Below, piece by piece: positions 46,702 to 51,011 of a stretch of 64,000 bases of DNA. Origin of the DNA: Rhodococcus sp. Z13 (GTDB lineage Bacteria; Actinomycetota; Actinomycetes; Mycobacteriales; Mycobacteriaceae); contig NZ_CP107551.1 of the NCBI RefSeq assembly GCF_025837095.1, forward strand, positions 2,536,668 through 2,600,667. The letters run 5' to 3'. Within the stretch, counting starts at the first letter, position 1; every line of letters starts with the position of its first letter. The notes under the pieces were generated by a model that had not been told where the DNA came from, ran no database searches, and saw only the letters and a list, made by a program, of their open reading frames with translations. A program made the translations under genes and the position numbers.

Positions 46702-46972
46702 GAACCTTCTCCGTTCCCTCCCCGGAACAGCGCAGATCGTGCCCCCACACTTGCTCATCGCACCGATACGCCCCCGGTGACGATGTGCGACCCCCGACAG
46801 GAGGCCTCTGCGAACTGTTCCCCGTGCCGCTCGAAGTCGAGCGGTTTCGGGTAACAGAATACTATCGAAAGTGACACTTGTCTCCCCTTCTCGCTGTGGA
46901 ATGTCACCAAAGCGTGGCGTTCAGGTGGATGTTCGGGTACCCCGCGACGGTGCAAGAACCGACGACGAAAAA

Positions 46973-47007
46973 CCGCCGGTGACGCGCTCGTCGCGCGTCA
47001 CCGGCGG
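46973..47007 (-). terminator. Intrinsic terminator of the metQNI operon
   Basis: CCGCCGGTGACGCG (46973-46986) pairs perfectly with CGCGTCACCGGCGG (46994-47007). In the minus direction the stem is followed by TTTTTCG. It lies 22 bp after the metI stop. Confidence 0.9.
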
Positions 47008-47029
47008 TTCGGGTCGATCCGGGTGCCGT

Positions 47030-47698
47030 CTACCTGCGGTGCGCCAGGCGCCGGACGGCCCGGTCGCCGATCGACTGCATGATCTGCACCATCACGATGA
47101 GCACGATCACCGCGAGCAACAGCACCGGGGTGTTGAACCGCTGGTAGCCGTAGACGATCGCGAAGTCGCCGAGCCCCCCGCCACCGATGACACCGGCCAT
47201 GGCGGAGTACCCCACCAGCAGCACCAGGGTGAGGGTCGCGCCGGACACCAGCGGGGACATCGCCTCGGGCAGGAGCACCTTGCGGATGATCTGCGCGTTC
47301 GTCGCGCCCATCGCCTGGGCGGCCTCCACCCGGCCCTTGGGTACCTCCCGCAGCGCCGCCTCCACGATGCGCCCGAAGAACGGGATCGCACCGATCGTCA
47401 GCGGCACGATCGCCGCGGTCGGGCCGATCGCGGTGCCCACCACGAAGCGGGTGAAGCCGATGAGCGCGATCAGCAGGATCAGGAAGGGCAGCGACCGGAA
47501 CAGGTTCACGATCACCCCCAGCACGGTGTTGAGCGCGCGCTGCGGCCACAACCCGGCCGGGGACGTCAGATGGAGGACGATGCCGACCAGCACACCGCCG
47601 ACGACGGTGAGCACGAACGACACCAGCACCATGTAGAGCGTCTCGAGCGTCGCCTCCCACACCTCGGGGAACGCGTCGTACCACTGCAGTTTGTTCAT
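47030..47698 (-). CDS. metI: Methionine ABC transporter permease MetI
   Basis: A 222-residue permease of the MetI family with five to six helices. The family pattern is FRSLPFLILLIALIGFTRFVVGTAIG, and the EAA loop EAAQAMGATNAQIIRKVLLPEA docks the ATPase. It imports methionine or its derivatives with MetN and MetQ. ATG 47698 lies 13 bp after the metN stop. A T-tailed terminator follows. Confidence 0.95.
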   Translation of the reverse strand: MNKLQWYDAFPEVWEATLETLYMVLVSFVLTVVGGVLVGIVLHLTSPAGLWPQRALNTVLGVIVNLFRSLPFLILLIALIGFTRFVVGTAIGPTAAIVPLTIGAIPFFGRIVEAALREVPKGRVEAAQAMGATNAQIIRKVLLPEAMSPLVSGATLTLVLLVGYSAMAGVIGGGGLGDFAIVYGYQRFNTPVLLLAVIVLIVMVQIMQSIGDRAVRRLAHRR

Positions 47699-47711
47699 CG
47701 CTCGCGCGTCC

Positions 47712-48731
47712 TCATTCGGTGAGCCCCTCCAGTTCCGTCTCCCTGCCCCACGCCAGCGACAGATAGGGCCGCTCCGCCACGAACCGTTCGACGTGGGCGC
47801 GGTCCGTCCCCTCCACGAACCGCAACCGCATGCGGCCGACGGTGACGCTGCCGACCTGCTCGACCCGGCCGCCGACGACGGCGACATCGGCGTCGAGCGT
47901 GCGGATCATGTCCGCCAGCCACGGTCCGTGCGCGGCCTCCCCGATCGCCGTGACCAGCGCGGTGTCCGCACTCGACCCGGCCGACGGGTCGGTGCCGACC
48001 GGCACCAGGGCGTGCCCGAGCGCCGAGTCCGGATCGGCGACCAGGTCGACGATCCGGCCGGTCTCCACGACACGGCCGGCGTCGAGCCGGGCCGCGGACG
48101 TGCAGATGCGGCGCAGCACCCCCAGCTCGTGGGTGATGACCACGACCGTCACGCCCAGGCGCCGGTTGACCTCGGCGACGAGGTCGAGCACCTGGTCGGT
48201 GGTGTCGGGATCGAGTGCGCTGGTCGCCTCGTCGCACAGCAGCACCTCGGGTTCGGCGGCGAGGGCGCGGGCGATGCCCACCCGCTGCTGCTGGCCGCCC
48301 GACAACTGGGAGGGGAAGGTCTCCTCCTTGCCGGACAGGCCCACCAGGTCCAGCAGTTCCAGTGCGCGCGTGCGGCGCTGCTGCTTGCCGACCCCGGCCA
48401 CCTCGAGGGGGAACTCGACGTTGCGGAGCACCGTCCGCGAGTGCAGCAGGTTGAACTGCTGGAACACCGTGCCGATCCGCCGGCGGGCCGCGCGCAGCTG
48501 CGCACCGGACAGGGTGGACAGGTCGTCCTCACCGAGGAGGATGCGGCCGGAGGTGGGCTTCTCGAGCAGGTTCAGGCAGCGCAGAAGTGTGGACTTGCCC
48601 GACCCGGACGGCCCGACGATGCCGTAGATCTCCCCGTCCGGGATCTGCAGCGACACGCCGCGCAGGGCCGTGACCTCCCCGGCGCGTCCGGCACCGGGGT
48701 AGGTCTTGACGAGGTTCTCGACGACGATCAT
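47712..48731 (-). CDS. metN: Methionine ABC transporter ATP-binding protein MetN
   Basis: A 339-residue ATPase: Walker [11 protein letters not shown]-loop FQQFNLLHSRTV, signature LSGGQQQR, Walker B VLLCDEATSALDP and H-loop VITHELGVLRRI. A C-terminal NIL domain (about 260-335: VTAIGEAAHGPWLADMIRTL, VGSVTVGRMRLRFVEG) is the regulatory domain that senses cytoplasmic methionine in characterised MetN proteins. ATG 48731 overlaps the last base of the metQ stop (TGATG). Confidence 0.96.
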   Translation of the reverse strand: MIVVENLVKTYPGAGRAGEVTALRGVSLQIPDGEIYGIVGPSGSGKSTLLRCLNLLEKPTSGRILLGEDDLSTLSGAQLRAARRRIGTVFQQFNLLHSRTVLRNVEFPLEVAGVGKQQRRTRALELLDLVGLSGKEETFPSQLSGGQQQRVGIARALAAEPEVLLCDEATSALDPDTTDQVLDLVAEVNRRLGVTVVVITHELGVLRRICTSAARLDAGRVVETGRIVDLVADPDSALGHALVPVGTDPSAGSSADTALVTAIGEAAHGPWLADMIRTLDADVAVVGGRVEQVGSVTVGRMRLRFVEGTDRAHVERFVAERPYLSLAWGRETELEGLTE

Positions 48732-49570
48732 CAGTTGGTCGAGTGGACCGGGACGACCGAACCGGAGTAGTTCTCCTCGATCCAGGCCGCGGTCTCCGGC
48801 GACTCGAGGGCCTCGGCGAGCGCGACGACGACCGCGTCGTTCTCGTTCTCGTCGCGGACCACGAGCAGGTTGGCGAACGGGTTGTCCTCGGCCTCCTCGA
48901 CGAAGATGGCGTCCTCGGCGGGGGTCAGGCCAGCCTCGAGGGCGTAGTTCGAGTTGATGACCGCGGCGGTGATCTGGGCGTCGCCGAGCTGACGCGCGAT
49001 CTGGGCACGCTCGATGCCGACGATGTTCAGGTTCTTCGGGTTGGACTTGATGTTGGACTCGGTCACGACCGACAGGTCGGCATCCTCGAAGGGCACGTCC
49101 ATCTCGAGCAGACCGGCCGATTCGAGCAGGTAGAGCGCCCGCGCGAAGTTGGTGGTGTCGCGCGGCACGGCGATGGTGTCGCCGTCCTCGATCCGGTCCA
49201 GCGAGTCGATCTTGTCGGAGTACAGGCCGATGGGCTCGAGGTGCACGTCGGCGACCGCGACGAGGTTGTCGACGCCCTTCTGCTTCTGCCAGTCGATCAG
49301 GTACGGCTCGTGCTGGAAGTAGTTGGCGTCGACGTCGCCGGCCTCGAGAAGCTCGTTGGCGTCGACCTCACCGGTGATCTCCACGATGTCGAGGTCGTAG
49401 TCGCCCAGCGCCCCGCTGTTCTCGATCTGCTCGAGGATCTCGACGTGCGGCGTGGACGAGGCCGCGATCCGGAGGGTGGTTCCGTCGCCTCCCTCGGAGG
49501 ACGAGCAGGCCGCGAGGCCCGCGGCGAGGGTGAGTGCAGCGGACGCGACGACGATTCGGCGCAGGGACAT
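48731..49570 (-). CDS. metQ: Methionine-binding lipoprotein MetQ (NlpA family)
   Basis: A 279-residue substrate-binding protein with a lipoprotein signal (MSLRRIVVASAALTLAAGLAAC, split here; lipid-accepting Cys22). Family pattern: LRIAASSTPHVEILEQI, DVDANYFQHEPYLIDWQK, VHLEPIGLYSDK, IAVPRDTTNFARALYLLE and NSNYALEAGL. GGAAGG lies upstream of ATG 49570. Only 54 bp separate it from the oxygenase gene upstream on the same strand, suggesting co-transcription. Confidence 0.95.
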   Translation of the reverse strand: MSLRRIVVASAALTLAAGLAACSSSEGGDGTTLRIAASSTPHVEILEQIENSGALGDYDLDIVEITGEVDANELLEAGDVDANYFQHEPYLIDWQKQKGVDNLVAVADVHLEPIGLYSDKIDSLDRIEDGDTIAVPRDTTNFARALYLLESAGLLEMDVPFEDADLSVVTESNIKSNPKNLNIVGIERAQIARQLGDAQITAAVINSNYALEAGLTPAEDAIFVEEAEDNPFANLLVVRDENENDAVVVALAEALESPETAAWIEENYSGSVVPVHSTN

Positions 49571-49624
49571 CGGCGAGAACCTTCCGTGTAACGGTACGAG
49601 GTGGTCGTGGACGATCGGATTCGA

Positions 49625-50650
49625 TTATCGAGCGGCGGCGAAGTTGCGGAGGAGTTCCGCGTGAAAACGCTCCGCCACGTTGGGGTGGGCCCGCAGCCGG
49701 GACTTGAGTGCGTTGAGCCCGTAGAGCGCGTGCAGGGTTCCGCCGTGTTCGTCGGGGCCGACACCGCGGGCCTCCGCGGCGAGTTCGGCCGGCAGGTCGA
49801 CGGCGGGCAACGCCTGGTCGAGACCGGGATTGAGGAAGAACGGCAGCGACACCCGGTCGGTGTCGGCCGCGGGCGGGAGCACCCGGTGCACGGTCGCCTT
49901 GAGGTAACCCCCGGTGGCGACCTCGAGCAGCTCCCCGATGTTGACGATGAAATGTCCTGGCAGAGGATCGATCTCGACCCACTCACCGTCACGCTCGACC
50001 TGGAAGCCGGTGCTGCCGGGTTCCGGGTAGAGCAGGGTCAGCGCACCGACGTCCTTGTGGCTGCCGACGCCCTGGTCGGTGACGGAGCCGTCGTGGCCGG
50101 GATAGCGGGCGATCTTCAGCAGCGGGTCGGGGGCGGCGAACGCCTCGGCGAAGTGGTCGGCGGGGGCGCCGAGGGACTCGGCCCACGCGCTGATCAGCCG
50201 CTGACCGACCTGCTCGGCCTCGTCGATCCACCGCAGGGCGAGTTCGCGCAGCCGGGGGATGCGGGCGGGCCACAGGTTGGGTCCGTGCAGCACCTCCCAG
50301 GGACGGTCGGGGTGGATCTCGGCGACGGCGTGGCGTTCCGGGCCGATGTCGAGCTGCTCCCGCCAGTCGATGTACCCCTGGGTGCGTTCCCCGCCGACGC
50401 GGGTGTAGCCGCGGAACTGCGGTGAGTTGACGTTCTCGATCTCGAGCTTGTCGGCTTCCGGCAGCGCGAAGAACTCCCGCGCGACCGCGATCAGTTCCTC
50501 GGCGAAGGCGGGATCGATGCCGTGCCCGGCGAGATGGAAGAAACCGATCTCGTGGGTGACTTCGCGGAGCCGGCCGAGCAGGGCCGCGCGGGTCTCGGCG
50601 TCACCGTCGAGTTCGGACAGGTCGATGACGGGCAGGACCGAGTCGGACAT
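49625..50650 (-). CDS. 2-oxoglutarate/Fe(II) oxygenase, isopenicillin N synthase family
   Basis: A 341-residue DIOX_N plus 2OG-FeII_Oxy protein. The iron ligands are H198 and D200 in GSHKDVGALT and H255 in KATVHRVLPP. R266 and S268 in DRVSLPFF would bind 2-oxoglutarate. The N-terminal part has GFFHLAGHGIDPAF, typical of the family. The substrate is unknown; no beta-lactam synthesis genes are present. AAGGATG precedes ATG 50650. A polycysteine leader ORF lies 140 bp upstream and metQNI follows on the same strand, so a sulfur-compound substrate is a reasonable inference. Confidence 0.9.
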   Translation of the reverse strand: MSDSVLPVIDLSELDGDAETRAALLGRLREVTHEIGFFHLAGHGIDPAFAEELIAVAREFFALPEADKLEIENVNSPQFRGYTRVGGERTQGYIDWREQLDIGPERHAVAEIHPDRPWEVLHGPNLWPARIPRLRELALRWIDEAEQVGQRLISAWAESLGAPADHFAEAFAAPDPLLKIARYPGHDGSVTDQGVGSHKDVGALTLLYPEPGSTGFQVERDGEWVEIDPLPGHFIVNIGELLEVATGGYLKATVHRVLPPAADTDRVSLPFFLNPGLDQALPAVDLPAELAAEARGVGPDEHGGTLHALYGLNALKSRLRAHPNVAERFHAELLRNFAAAR

Positions 50651-50790
50651 GATCATCCTTCTTTCGAAACACATCGTGCGCCCGAGAAGAGCCACGGGCC
50701 GCACAGGACGGGTCTTTGCGACACCCCACGGCGGTCGGCGACGGCGCGAGAAATGCGGAGGGCGGGACCCCGAGGACGGGACGGGTCGGG

Positions 50791-50868
50791 TCAGCGACAA
50801 CAACACGCGGGAGCCACGACGCCCTGAAGGCGTGTGCTCACAACCTGCGTGCACGCGTTGCCGAACAT
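50791..50868 (-). CDS. 25-codon leader peptide ending in a Cys-Cys-Cys tract
   Basis: ATG 50868 follows a near-perfect ribosome site (GGAGGGAAC directly before ATG). The frame encodes 25 residues and ends PACCCR then TGA at 50791. The three cysteines are all TGT, a rare codon in DNA of this GC content, placed just before the stop. A strong upstream stem (GGCCCC-GTC-GGGGCC, 50883-50897) precedes it, and a GCCCG/CGGGC stem lies just ahead of the oxygenase ribosome site. Cysteine-rich leader ORFs acting as cysteine-responsive attenuators are known in mycobacteria. The rest of 50651-51011 shows no gene. Confidence 0.7.
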   Translation of the reverse strand: MFGNACTQVVSTRLQGVVAPACCCR

Positions 50869-51011
50869 GTTCCCTCCGATGAGGCCCCGACGGGGCCCTA
50901 CTACGACACGGAACCACGATGTGGTCGTGATCGAGGCTAATCGCCTTCGGTGCCACCGGGCAAATCGCCCTGCCTCCGGCGCGGCCGGCCGATCACCCGG
51001 CCGCGGTCCCG

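Follow-up and report, generated by a model that had tools for sequence, protein, structure and literature searches.

Short open reading frames (ORFs) with runs of cysteine codons have been predicted in front of cys operons or cbs in mycobacteria, Propionibacterium acnes and Bifidobacterium longum (Seliverstov et al. 2005, PMC1262725). Cysteine-responsive attenuation in Mycobacterium smegmatis is the subject of work cited by two further papers (PMC13236596, PMC9094748). Here, we describe a leader ORF of this kind in a stretch of 64,000 nucleotides from Rhodococcus sp. Z13 (contig NZ_CP107551.1, positions 2,536,668 to 2,600,667; hereafter the window), where it is followed on the minus strand by a putative oxygenase gene and by metQ, metN and metI genes for a MetQNI-type importer. 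Given the mycobacterial precedents and at least two more such leaders in the same genome, this is a leader of a type already known from mycobacteria at a new target, the metQNI-type importer. In the accessible portion of the open-licence literature, no paper was found that describes a cysteine leader ahead of metQNI in Rhodococcus or the reaction of this oxygenase.

The locus resembles the mycobacterial poly-cysteine leaders in its short ORF with a cysteine run near the stop codon and sulfur genes downstream, in having no convincing intrinsic terminator between the leader and the first gene, and in a probable leaderless message in three Rhodococcus relatives. It differs from them in its target, an importer with or without the oxygenase, in the Shine-Dalgarno sequence of the window's leader, and in a stop-codon-anchored RNA pairing visible in the sister group of Prescottella and Tomitella. 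Mycobacterial poly-cysteine leader ORFs are reportedly leaderless, going by the title of a 2020 paper by Canestrari. With the trp and ilvB attenuators the locus shares a short leader containing codons for the regulated amino acid; in contrast to these, no terminator-like site was found between leader and oxygenase, and a 5-pair match of the terminator scan (50818-50806) falls within the leader itself.

The leader and its association with metQ

The ORF of the original prediction, 25 codons from the ATG at 50868 to the stop TGA at 50793-50791, was confirmed by direct reading. Its 3′ end reads GCG TGT TGT TGT CGC TGA, so that the predicted run of three TGT codons is present but does not directly adjoin the stop, a single Arg codon intervening; a fourth Cys is encoded by codon 6. 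The ribosome site, previously called almost ideal, is a strong GGAGGG, yet its gap of 3 nt to the ATG is tight. Over the full 64 kb, counting both strands, there are just two ATG-initiated ORFs of 12-45 codons with at least three Cys among the last eight codons, and of these only the leader has a ribosome site. In dinucleotide shuffles of the corresponding loci of 19 leader-bearing relatives (at most 400 nt 5′ of the oxygenase; the window's own stretch lies outside this test), a Cys-tail ORF by a looser rule arose in 0-22 of 200 shuffles per locus. Conservation is the stronger test, and the leader passed it, both the Cys tract and the initiation signals being kept across relatives, as the original prediction had proposed to check. 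The leader combines a Cys run near the stop, a sulfur-type operon downstream, start signals and conservation with that operon. Judged on these features of the sequence, the short poly-Cys ORF before a sulfur-type operon is real, well beyond chance.

Two to three neighbouring Cys codons stand close to the stop in all 28 distinct leader sequences, and 27 of these contain at least three Cys, the exception being L029 with just two. The leader is conserved within Rhodococcus; leaders of Prescottella and Tomitella have a different body and retain the Cys run, and the peptides, whose bodies vary between groups, are 15-28 aa long. A TTGnnn / 17-18 nt / TAGCCT-like element lies 5′ of the leader in 25 of the 28 sequences, including the window's, and was not found in L038, L054 and L055. 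Just 8 nt separate its -10 box from the leader ATG in three Rhodococcus relatives (L011, L012, L016), whose message is therefore probably leaderless; in the remaining sequences having the element, the window's included, the distance is 54-65 nt. A promoter between leader and oxygenase, which the original prediction had named as evidence against itself, did not appear in a simple sigma-70 scan, a weak one that misses the conserved upstream element too. NCBIfam holds no model for three of the leader peptides; in Rfam the window yields only a tRNA, and two leader regions yield nothing at E up to 1.

The leader follows the importer. Among 18 genomes of the genus, the oxygenase (E<=1e-80) is present in 16 and metQ (E<=1e-40) in 14, with neither found in G007 at these thresholds. 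The leader occurs in 14/14 genomes having metQ, including 13/13 having both genes, and in one genome (G016, locus L106) leader and metQ are present with the oxygenase reduced to a remnant between them. It is absent from all three genomes with the oxygenase but without this metQ (L013, L017, L018). Two of the latter (G014, G017) carry a distant MetQ-type gene elsewhere (34% identity). The stretch upstream of this gene shows no Cys leader in G017; two GTG frames with scattered Cys near its start in G014 were judged to be chance.

A named set of 59 loci, which overlaps the genus set, was examined up to 400 nt upstream. The leader was found at all 17 Rhodococcus/Prescottella/Tomitella-type loci followed by metQNI, at none of the six close homologue loci without metQNI (L043, L050-L053, L078; the oxygenase start of L053 was not resolved), and at two of the other 36 (L055 from Microcella and, weaker, L084 from Dermatophilaceae). 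Twelve of 14 further family loci have it, the exceptions being L031 and L032. No metQ was found in the L032 genome (G108) or in G120, both of which bear the oxygenase, and the L031 genome (G181) has a metQ (53% identity) located elsewhere and without a leader.

Of 201 genomes in a family set, 36 carry metQ (E up to 1e-30); ten of these were examined over about 1.8-1.9 kb upstream of metQ, and two of the 36 (G026, G197) lay outside the inspection upstream of the oxygenase. At two loci of genus g10 (L121, L122), a Cys leader, MRSPATPD[V/A]TTLMRGRCCCMRWR, lies immediately 5′ of metQ, with no oxygenase in the fetched stretch or the whole genomes. Spacers of other members of this genus are identical to those of Prescottella agglutinans and P. 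subtropica. At L121 and L122, the apparent former oxygenase start continues in frame into metQ, and the Prescottella-type RNA elements are retained. Hence the oxygenase has apparently been lost twice while leader and importer stayed, and because neither of these was lost with it, the leader goes with the importer. These natural gene losses reveal which gene the leader belongs to. The original link of the leader to both oxygenase and importer is thereby shifted to the importer: the leader occurs without the oxygenase, and the oxygenase without this metQ lacks the leader.

Some observations stand beside this pattern. The metQ gene of L121 and L122 may gain a short N-terminal extension. In Microcella alkalica (L055, 6777-6824), a short Cys ORF, MARLLCRRCCCRSSL, precedes an oxygenase homologue; no metQNI was found close by, and this may be a pairing of independent origin. 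The other gapless match to the Cys pattern in the genome (L094) lies amid further reading frames, and the Cys-containing GTG frame at L116, a weak one, was not counted as a leader.

Candidate control and RNA structure

On comparative grounds, we consider it likely that the metQNI importer operon is attenuated in response to cysteine through this leader, and that its first gene, the oxygenase, is optional. Transcription would start at the conserved element 5′ of the leader. With ample charged Cys-tRNA, the ribosome would translate past the Cys run as far as the stop, and the message beyond would be off; when Cys-tRNA is scarce, the ribosome would pause on the Cys run, the RNA past the leader would be covered differently, and the operon would be on. 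Uptake of an organic sulfur amino acid by the cell would follow, and a methionine- or homocysteine-type compound feeding cysteine or methionine synthesis would probably be the substrate of the oxygenase. In Prescottella and Tomitella, a hairpin would enter the ribosome site of the first gene, and the stop-codon region could capture its loop, being masked by a ribosome at the stop and free during a pause on the Cys run. Cysteine-codon attenuation would thereby be widened to organic sulfur uptake.

The sister genus supplies an RNA switch that can be drawn. In an alignment of 16 distinct Prescottella/Tomitella sequences (A4), a 12-pair hairpin extends into GUGGGGAAAGG, the oxygenase ribosome site, with 97.4% of cells paired; eight of its 12 pairs are invariant and therefore offer no proof by covariation. 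An upstream helix has changed on both sides in three of six pairs. The covariation score exceeds 500/500 shuffles; relatedness among the sequences, the tool warns, can produce such a score. Complementarity links the stop-codon region GCGCUGAGACGAG to the hairpin loop CGUCGCAGCGC: of 120 leader/spacer segments this region is the top-ranked loop partner, the loop is its best target, and shuffled spacers give an equally good duplex in 0-13% (11 Prescottella-type sequences). A switch made of the hairpin and the stop-region pairing is plausible in these genera. The compensating stems that the original prediction had suggested looking for are accordingly represented by one covarying helix in Prescottella/Tomitella and by none found in the window's clade.

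A number of results weigh against cysteine-responsive control of the operon by the leader. The leader is absent from all eight more divergent metQ loci (36-53% identity). In A4, the outer hairpin pairs reaching AAAGGA are only 78.1% paired and the count of pair types does not exceed that of shuffles (180/500); the helix between stop region and loop shows no two-sided pair change and is broken in some members. For the window's own clade, the alifold energy is no better than that of column shuffles (-24.6 against -21.3, standard deviation 3.5; without the window -32.7 against -33.5, standard deviation 4.1). Stop-region complementarity is matched by 96% of shuffles in the window and is not significant in 12 Rhodococcus sequences (shuffle fraction 0.097-1.0). 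The Prescottella model, R1, matches no leader in this clade; over 12 sources it gave a single chance-like match (E 0.67, in L037, off the leader). When a ribosome was set at the first Cys, the last Cys or the stop, folding by a method that excludes pseudoknots gave no consistently freer ribosome sites in either group. A single RNA structure common to all leaders was rejected on the weak Rhodococcus alifold result, the column shuffles and the R1 mismatch. Searching 298 genomes of the order with R1 gave no match, an uninformative outcome since no known positive was recovered.

The importer scores belong on the same side. An NlpA lipoprotein, a NIL-domain ATPase and a MetI permease occur together, all above their Pfam cut-offs (PF03180, PF09383, PF00528). 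Against NCBIfam, MetN scores 300.8 bits where the methionine MetN equivalog cut-off is 499.7, MetQ reaches 171.3 against 374 and 167.7 against 228.85, and only MetI clears a methionine cut-off (214 against 212). Since MetN and MetQ fall below these cut-offs, the predicted methionine-type importer stands as a type, with methionine as a candidate cargo. In favour of the control reading, MetQ and MetN are listed as raised in Rhodococcus qingshengii IGTS8 on dibenzothiophene compared with sulfate (PMC8557817); the IGTS8 metQ is outside the leader survey.

Where no structure is found, none may be needed. In Rho-dependent attenuation, the untranslated C-rich spacer would be a Rho loading site hidden by a ribosome paused near the end of the leader, with no base-pairing switch. 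C exceeds G in all 28 distinct spacers (C/G 2.1 over the first 60 nt in the window), so this mechanism is a possibility, and the lack of a detected common structure in the window's clade agrees with it, as does the suggestion of Rho for mycobacterial cys leaders by Seliverstov et al. (2005), who call their own prediction weak (PMC1262725). However, the C bias was measured within the leader spacers of these genomes, and what Prescottella shows instead is conservation of a hairpin at the ribosome site. Rho is in our view a doubtful candidate, if the strongest of the alternatives.

The oxygenase and its neighbours

The oxygenase carries both Pfam domains of the DIOX_N/2OG-FeII_Oxy family, and H198, D200, H255, R266 and S268 are invariant in 12 aligned sequences, the window's included. 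These residues form the His-Asp-His and Arg-x-Ser pattern that we take to be the motif of this family, to which the protein is assigned. Its nearest Protein Data Bank chains are 9ovh (E 7.1e-62) and 6jyv (E 1e-51), those of isopenicillin N synthase following at about 8e-14. Isopenicillin N synthase proper was rejected, as it is not the closest solved relative; the predicted likeness to this enzyme is sound at the level of the family only. A second, distant oxygenase of the family (34-40% identity) is encoded at G000:C1 2606637-2607563 (L003, L004), about 20 kb from the first and outside the window.

The pairing of oxygenase and importer, which the original prediction had made part of a new sulfur-scavenging unit, extends beyond Rhodococcus, recurring in Campylobacter, Rudaea, Erwinia, Naasia and Microbacterium. 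A MetQ homologue shares the locus with an oxygenase relative in 27 of the 59 named loci; Pfam confirmed the NlpA family for those of L062, L073 and L074, and none of the neighbouring MetQ homologues scanned passed the NCBIfam MetQ cut-offs. By tblastn, LuxS is encoded nearby in Naasia/Microbacterium (L056-L058, L091) and at two Campylobacter loci (L074, L077); L058 and L074 clear the Pfam LuxS cut-off, and three Naasia-type LuxS scanned are under those of NCBIfam. MetE is above its cut-off in L074, with the MetE-like proteins of L075 and L091 and the MetH of L079 under NCBIfam cut-offs. O-acetylhomoserine sulfhydrylase is found nearby in L066, L068 and L081 (above the TIGR01326 cut-off), is the best match, under that cut-off, of a frame in L090, and at further loci was seen by tblastn only. 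Genes of CBS and cystathionine-enzyme type occur in L060 and L067, the CBS under its cut-off. LuxS, MetE, MetY and CBS-type enzymes make or use homocysteine or methionine. The repetition of such neighbours and of metQ across phyla therefore suggests that the oxygenase acts near methionine/homocysteine metabolism. Such a tie makes the substrate a tractable question for an oxygenase family that is uncharacterised and ranges from Campylobacter to Actinobacteria.

In the Naasia/Microbacterium clusters (L056, L057, L058, L091), metQ-metN-metI and the oxygenase are accompanied by luxS and an aminotransferase-type gene; some have a TAGCGT-like box just 5′ of the oxygenase ATG, which suggests a leaderless mRNA.

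A known counterpart is Cj1199-Cj1200 of Campylobacter jejuni, with which the genes of L074 were equated by gene order. There, luxS and metE flank a homologue of the oxygenase (41%) and, after it, an NlpA/MetQ-type lipoprotein; in contrast to the window, no Cys leader was found. In one study, Cj1199 and Cj1200 are up 6.2- and 14.8-fold in a luxS mutant and lie immediately 3′ of luxS (PMC2772989), and polar effects are therefore possible in that mutant. These data, like those from IGTS8, are compatible with this metabolic placement and are no proof of it.

These neighbours also bear on whether the oxygenase is an unrelated passenger, the importer alone being under cysteine control and the pairing meaningless. 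Its two apparent losses beside a kept leader and metQ, and its presence without this metQ in three Rhodococcus genomes, G108 and G120, would fit such a reading; against it, relatives at 40-57% identity adjoin metQ, LuxS, MetE, MetY or CBS-type genes in several phyla, and we regard it as improbable. Much the same low weight is given to the most far-reaching form of the attenuator reading, a cysteine-sensed rescue unit in which MetQNI would import methionine or another S-alkyl amino acid, the oxygenase would free homocysteine by oxidative dealkylation, and the leader stop codon in Prescottella would be part of an anti-sequestor, the ribosome masking or freeing its own stop region. We know of no iron- and 2-oxoglutarate-dependent shortcut by oxidative dealkylation into cysteine and methionine synthesis. 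Very unlikely, finally, is a leader product that, translated and conserved as it appears, works as a Cys-rich small protein (metal or redox binding) and not as a codon sensor, given that Rhodococcus and Prescottella have different peptide bodies but share the Cys run and its location, and that the leader remains in cis with metQ.

Features of the locus and further leaders

Direct reading (Table 1) upholds the predicted order metQ-metN-metI and the predicted distances of 140 bp from the leader to the oxygenase ATG (50650) and 54 bp from the oxygenase to metQ; the metQ stop is overlapped by the metN start, and 13 bp separate metN from metI. The T-tailed terminator predicted after metI is likewise seen on reading, but the terminator scan does not list the hairpin (47007-46968), perhaps because its stem can extend into the T-run.

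Table 1. Coordinates of the leader, the operon and associated signals in the window.
Feature	Positions	Strand	Basis
Promoter-like element TTGCCC (50963-50958) / 18-nt spacer / TAGCCT (50939-50934)	50934..50963	minus	direct reading
Shine-Dalgarno GGAGGG of leader ORF	50872..50877	minus	direct reading
Poly-cysteine leader ORF, peptide MFGNACTQVVSTRLQGVVAPACCCR then stop	50791..50868	minus	direct reading and conservation with metQ
Cys run TGT TGT TGT, codons 22-24, proposed sensor	50797..50805	minus	direct reading
Untranslated spacer, 140 nt, C exceeding G	50651..50790	minus	direct reading and base composition
Oxygenase ribosome site AGAAGG, inside spacer	50662-50657	minus	direct reading
DIOX_N / 2OG-Fe(II) oxygenase, 341 aa	49625..50650	minus	PF14226 and PF03171 above cut-off
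MetQ/NlpA-type substrate-binding lipoprotein	48731..49570	minus	PF03180 above cut-off; under MetQ subfamily cut-offs
MetN-type ATPase, C-terminal NIL domain	47712..48731	minus	PF00005 and PF09383 above cut-off
MetI-type permease	47030..47698	minus	PF00528 above cut-off; NF008049 214 bits, cut-off 212
Terminator-like hairpin, perfect 15-bp stem, 5-nt loop, TTTTT	46968..47007	minus	direct reading

Elsewhere in the same genome, poly-Cys leaders were seen at two of nine inspected loci (two family searches, with loci for the best matches only). These two leaders have an RR-VD-R stretch in common, in which they differ from the window's peptide. One (L109, C1 about 2818942-2819062), MTGSGVRLVARRHVDFKRVCASCCLPCAACLCADCS, precedes a sulfite/nitrite reductase-type gene; the other (L113, minus strand), MLTRRRAVDLCRLGGCCCPCC, precedes a 154-codon ORF and then a rhodanese gene (rhodanese match at C1 697676-698026).

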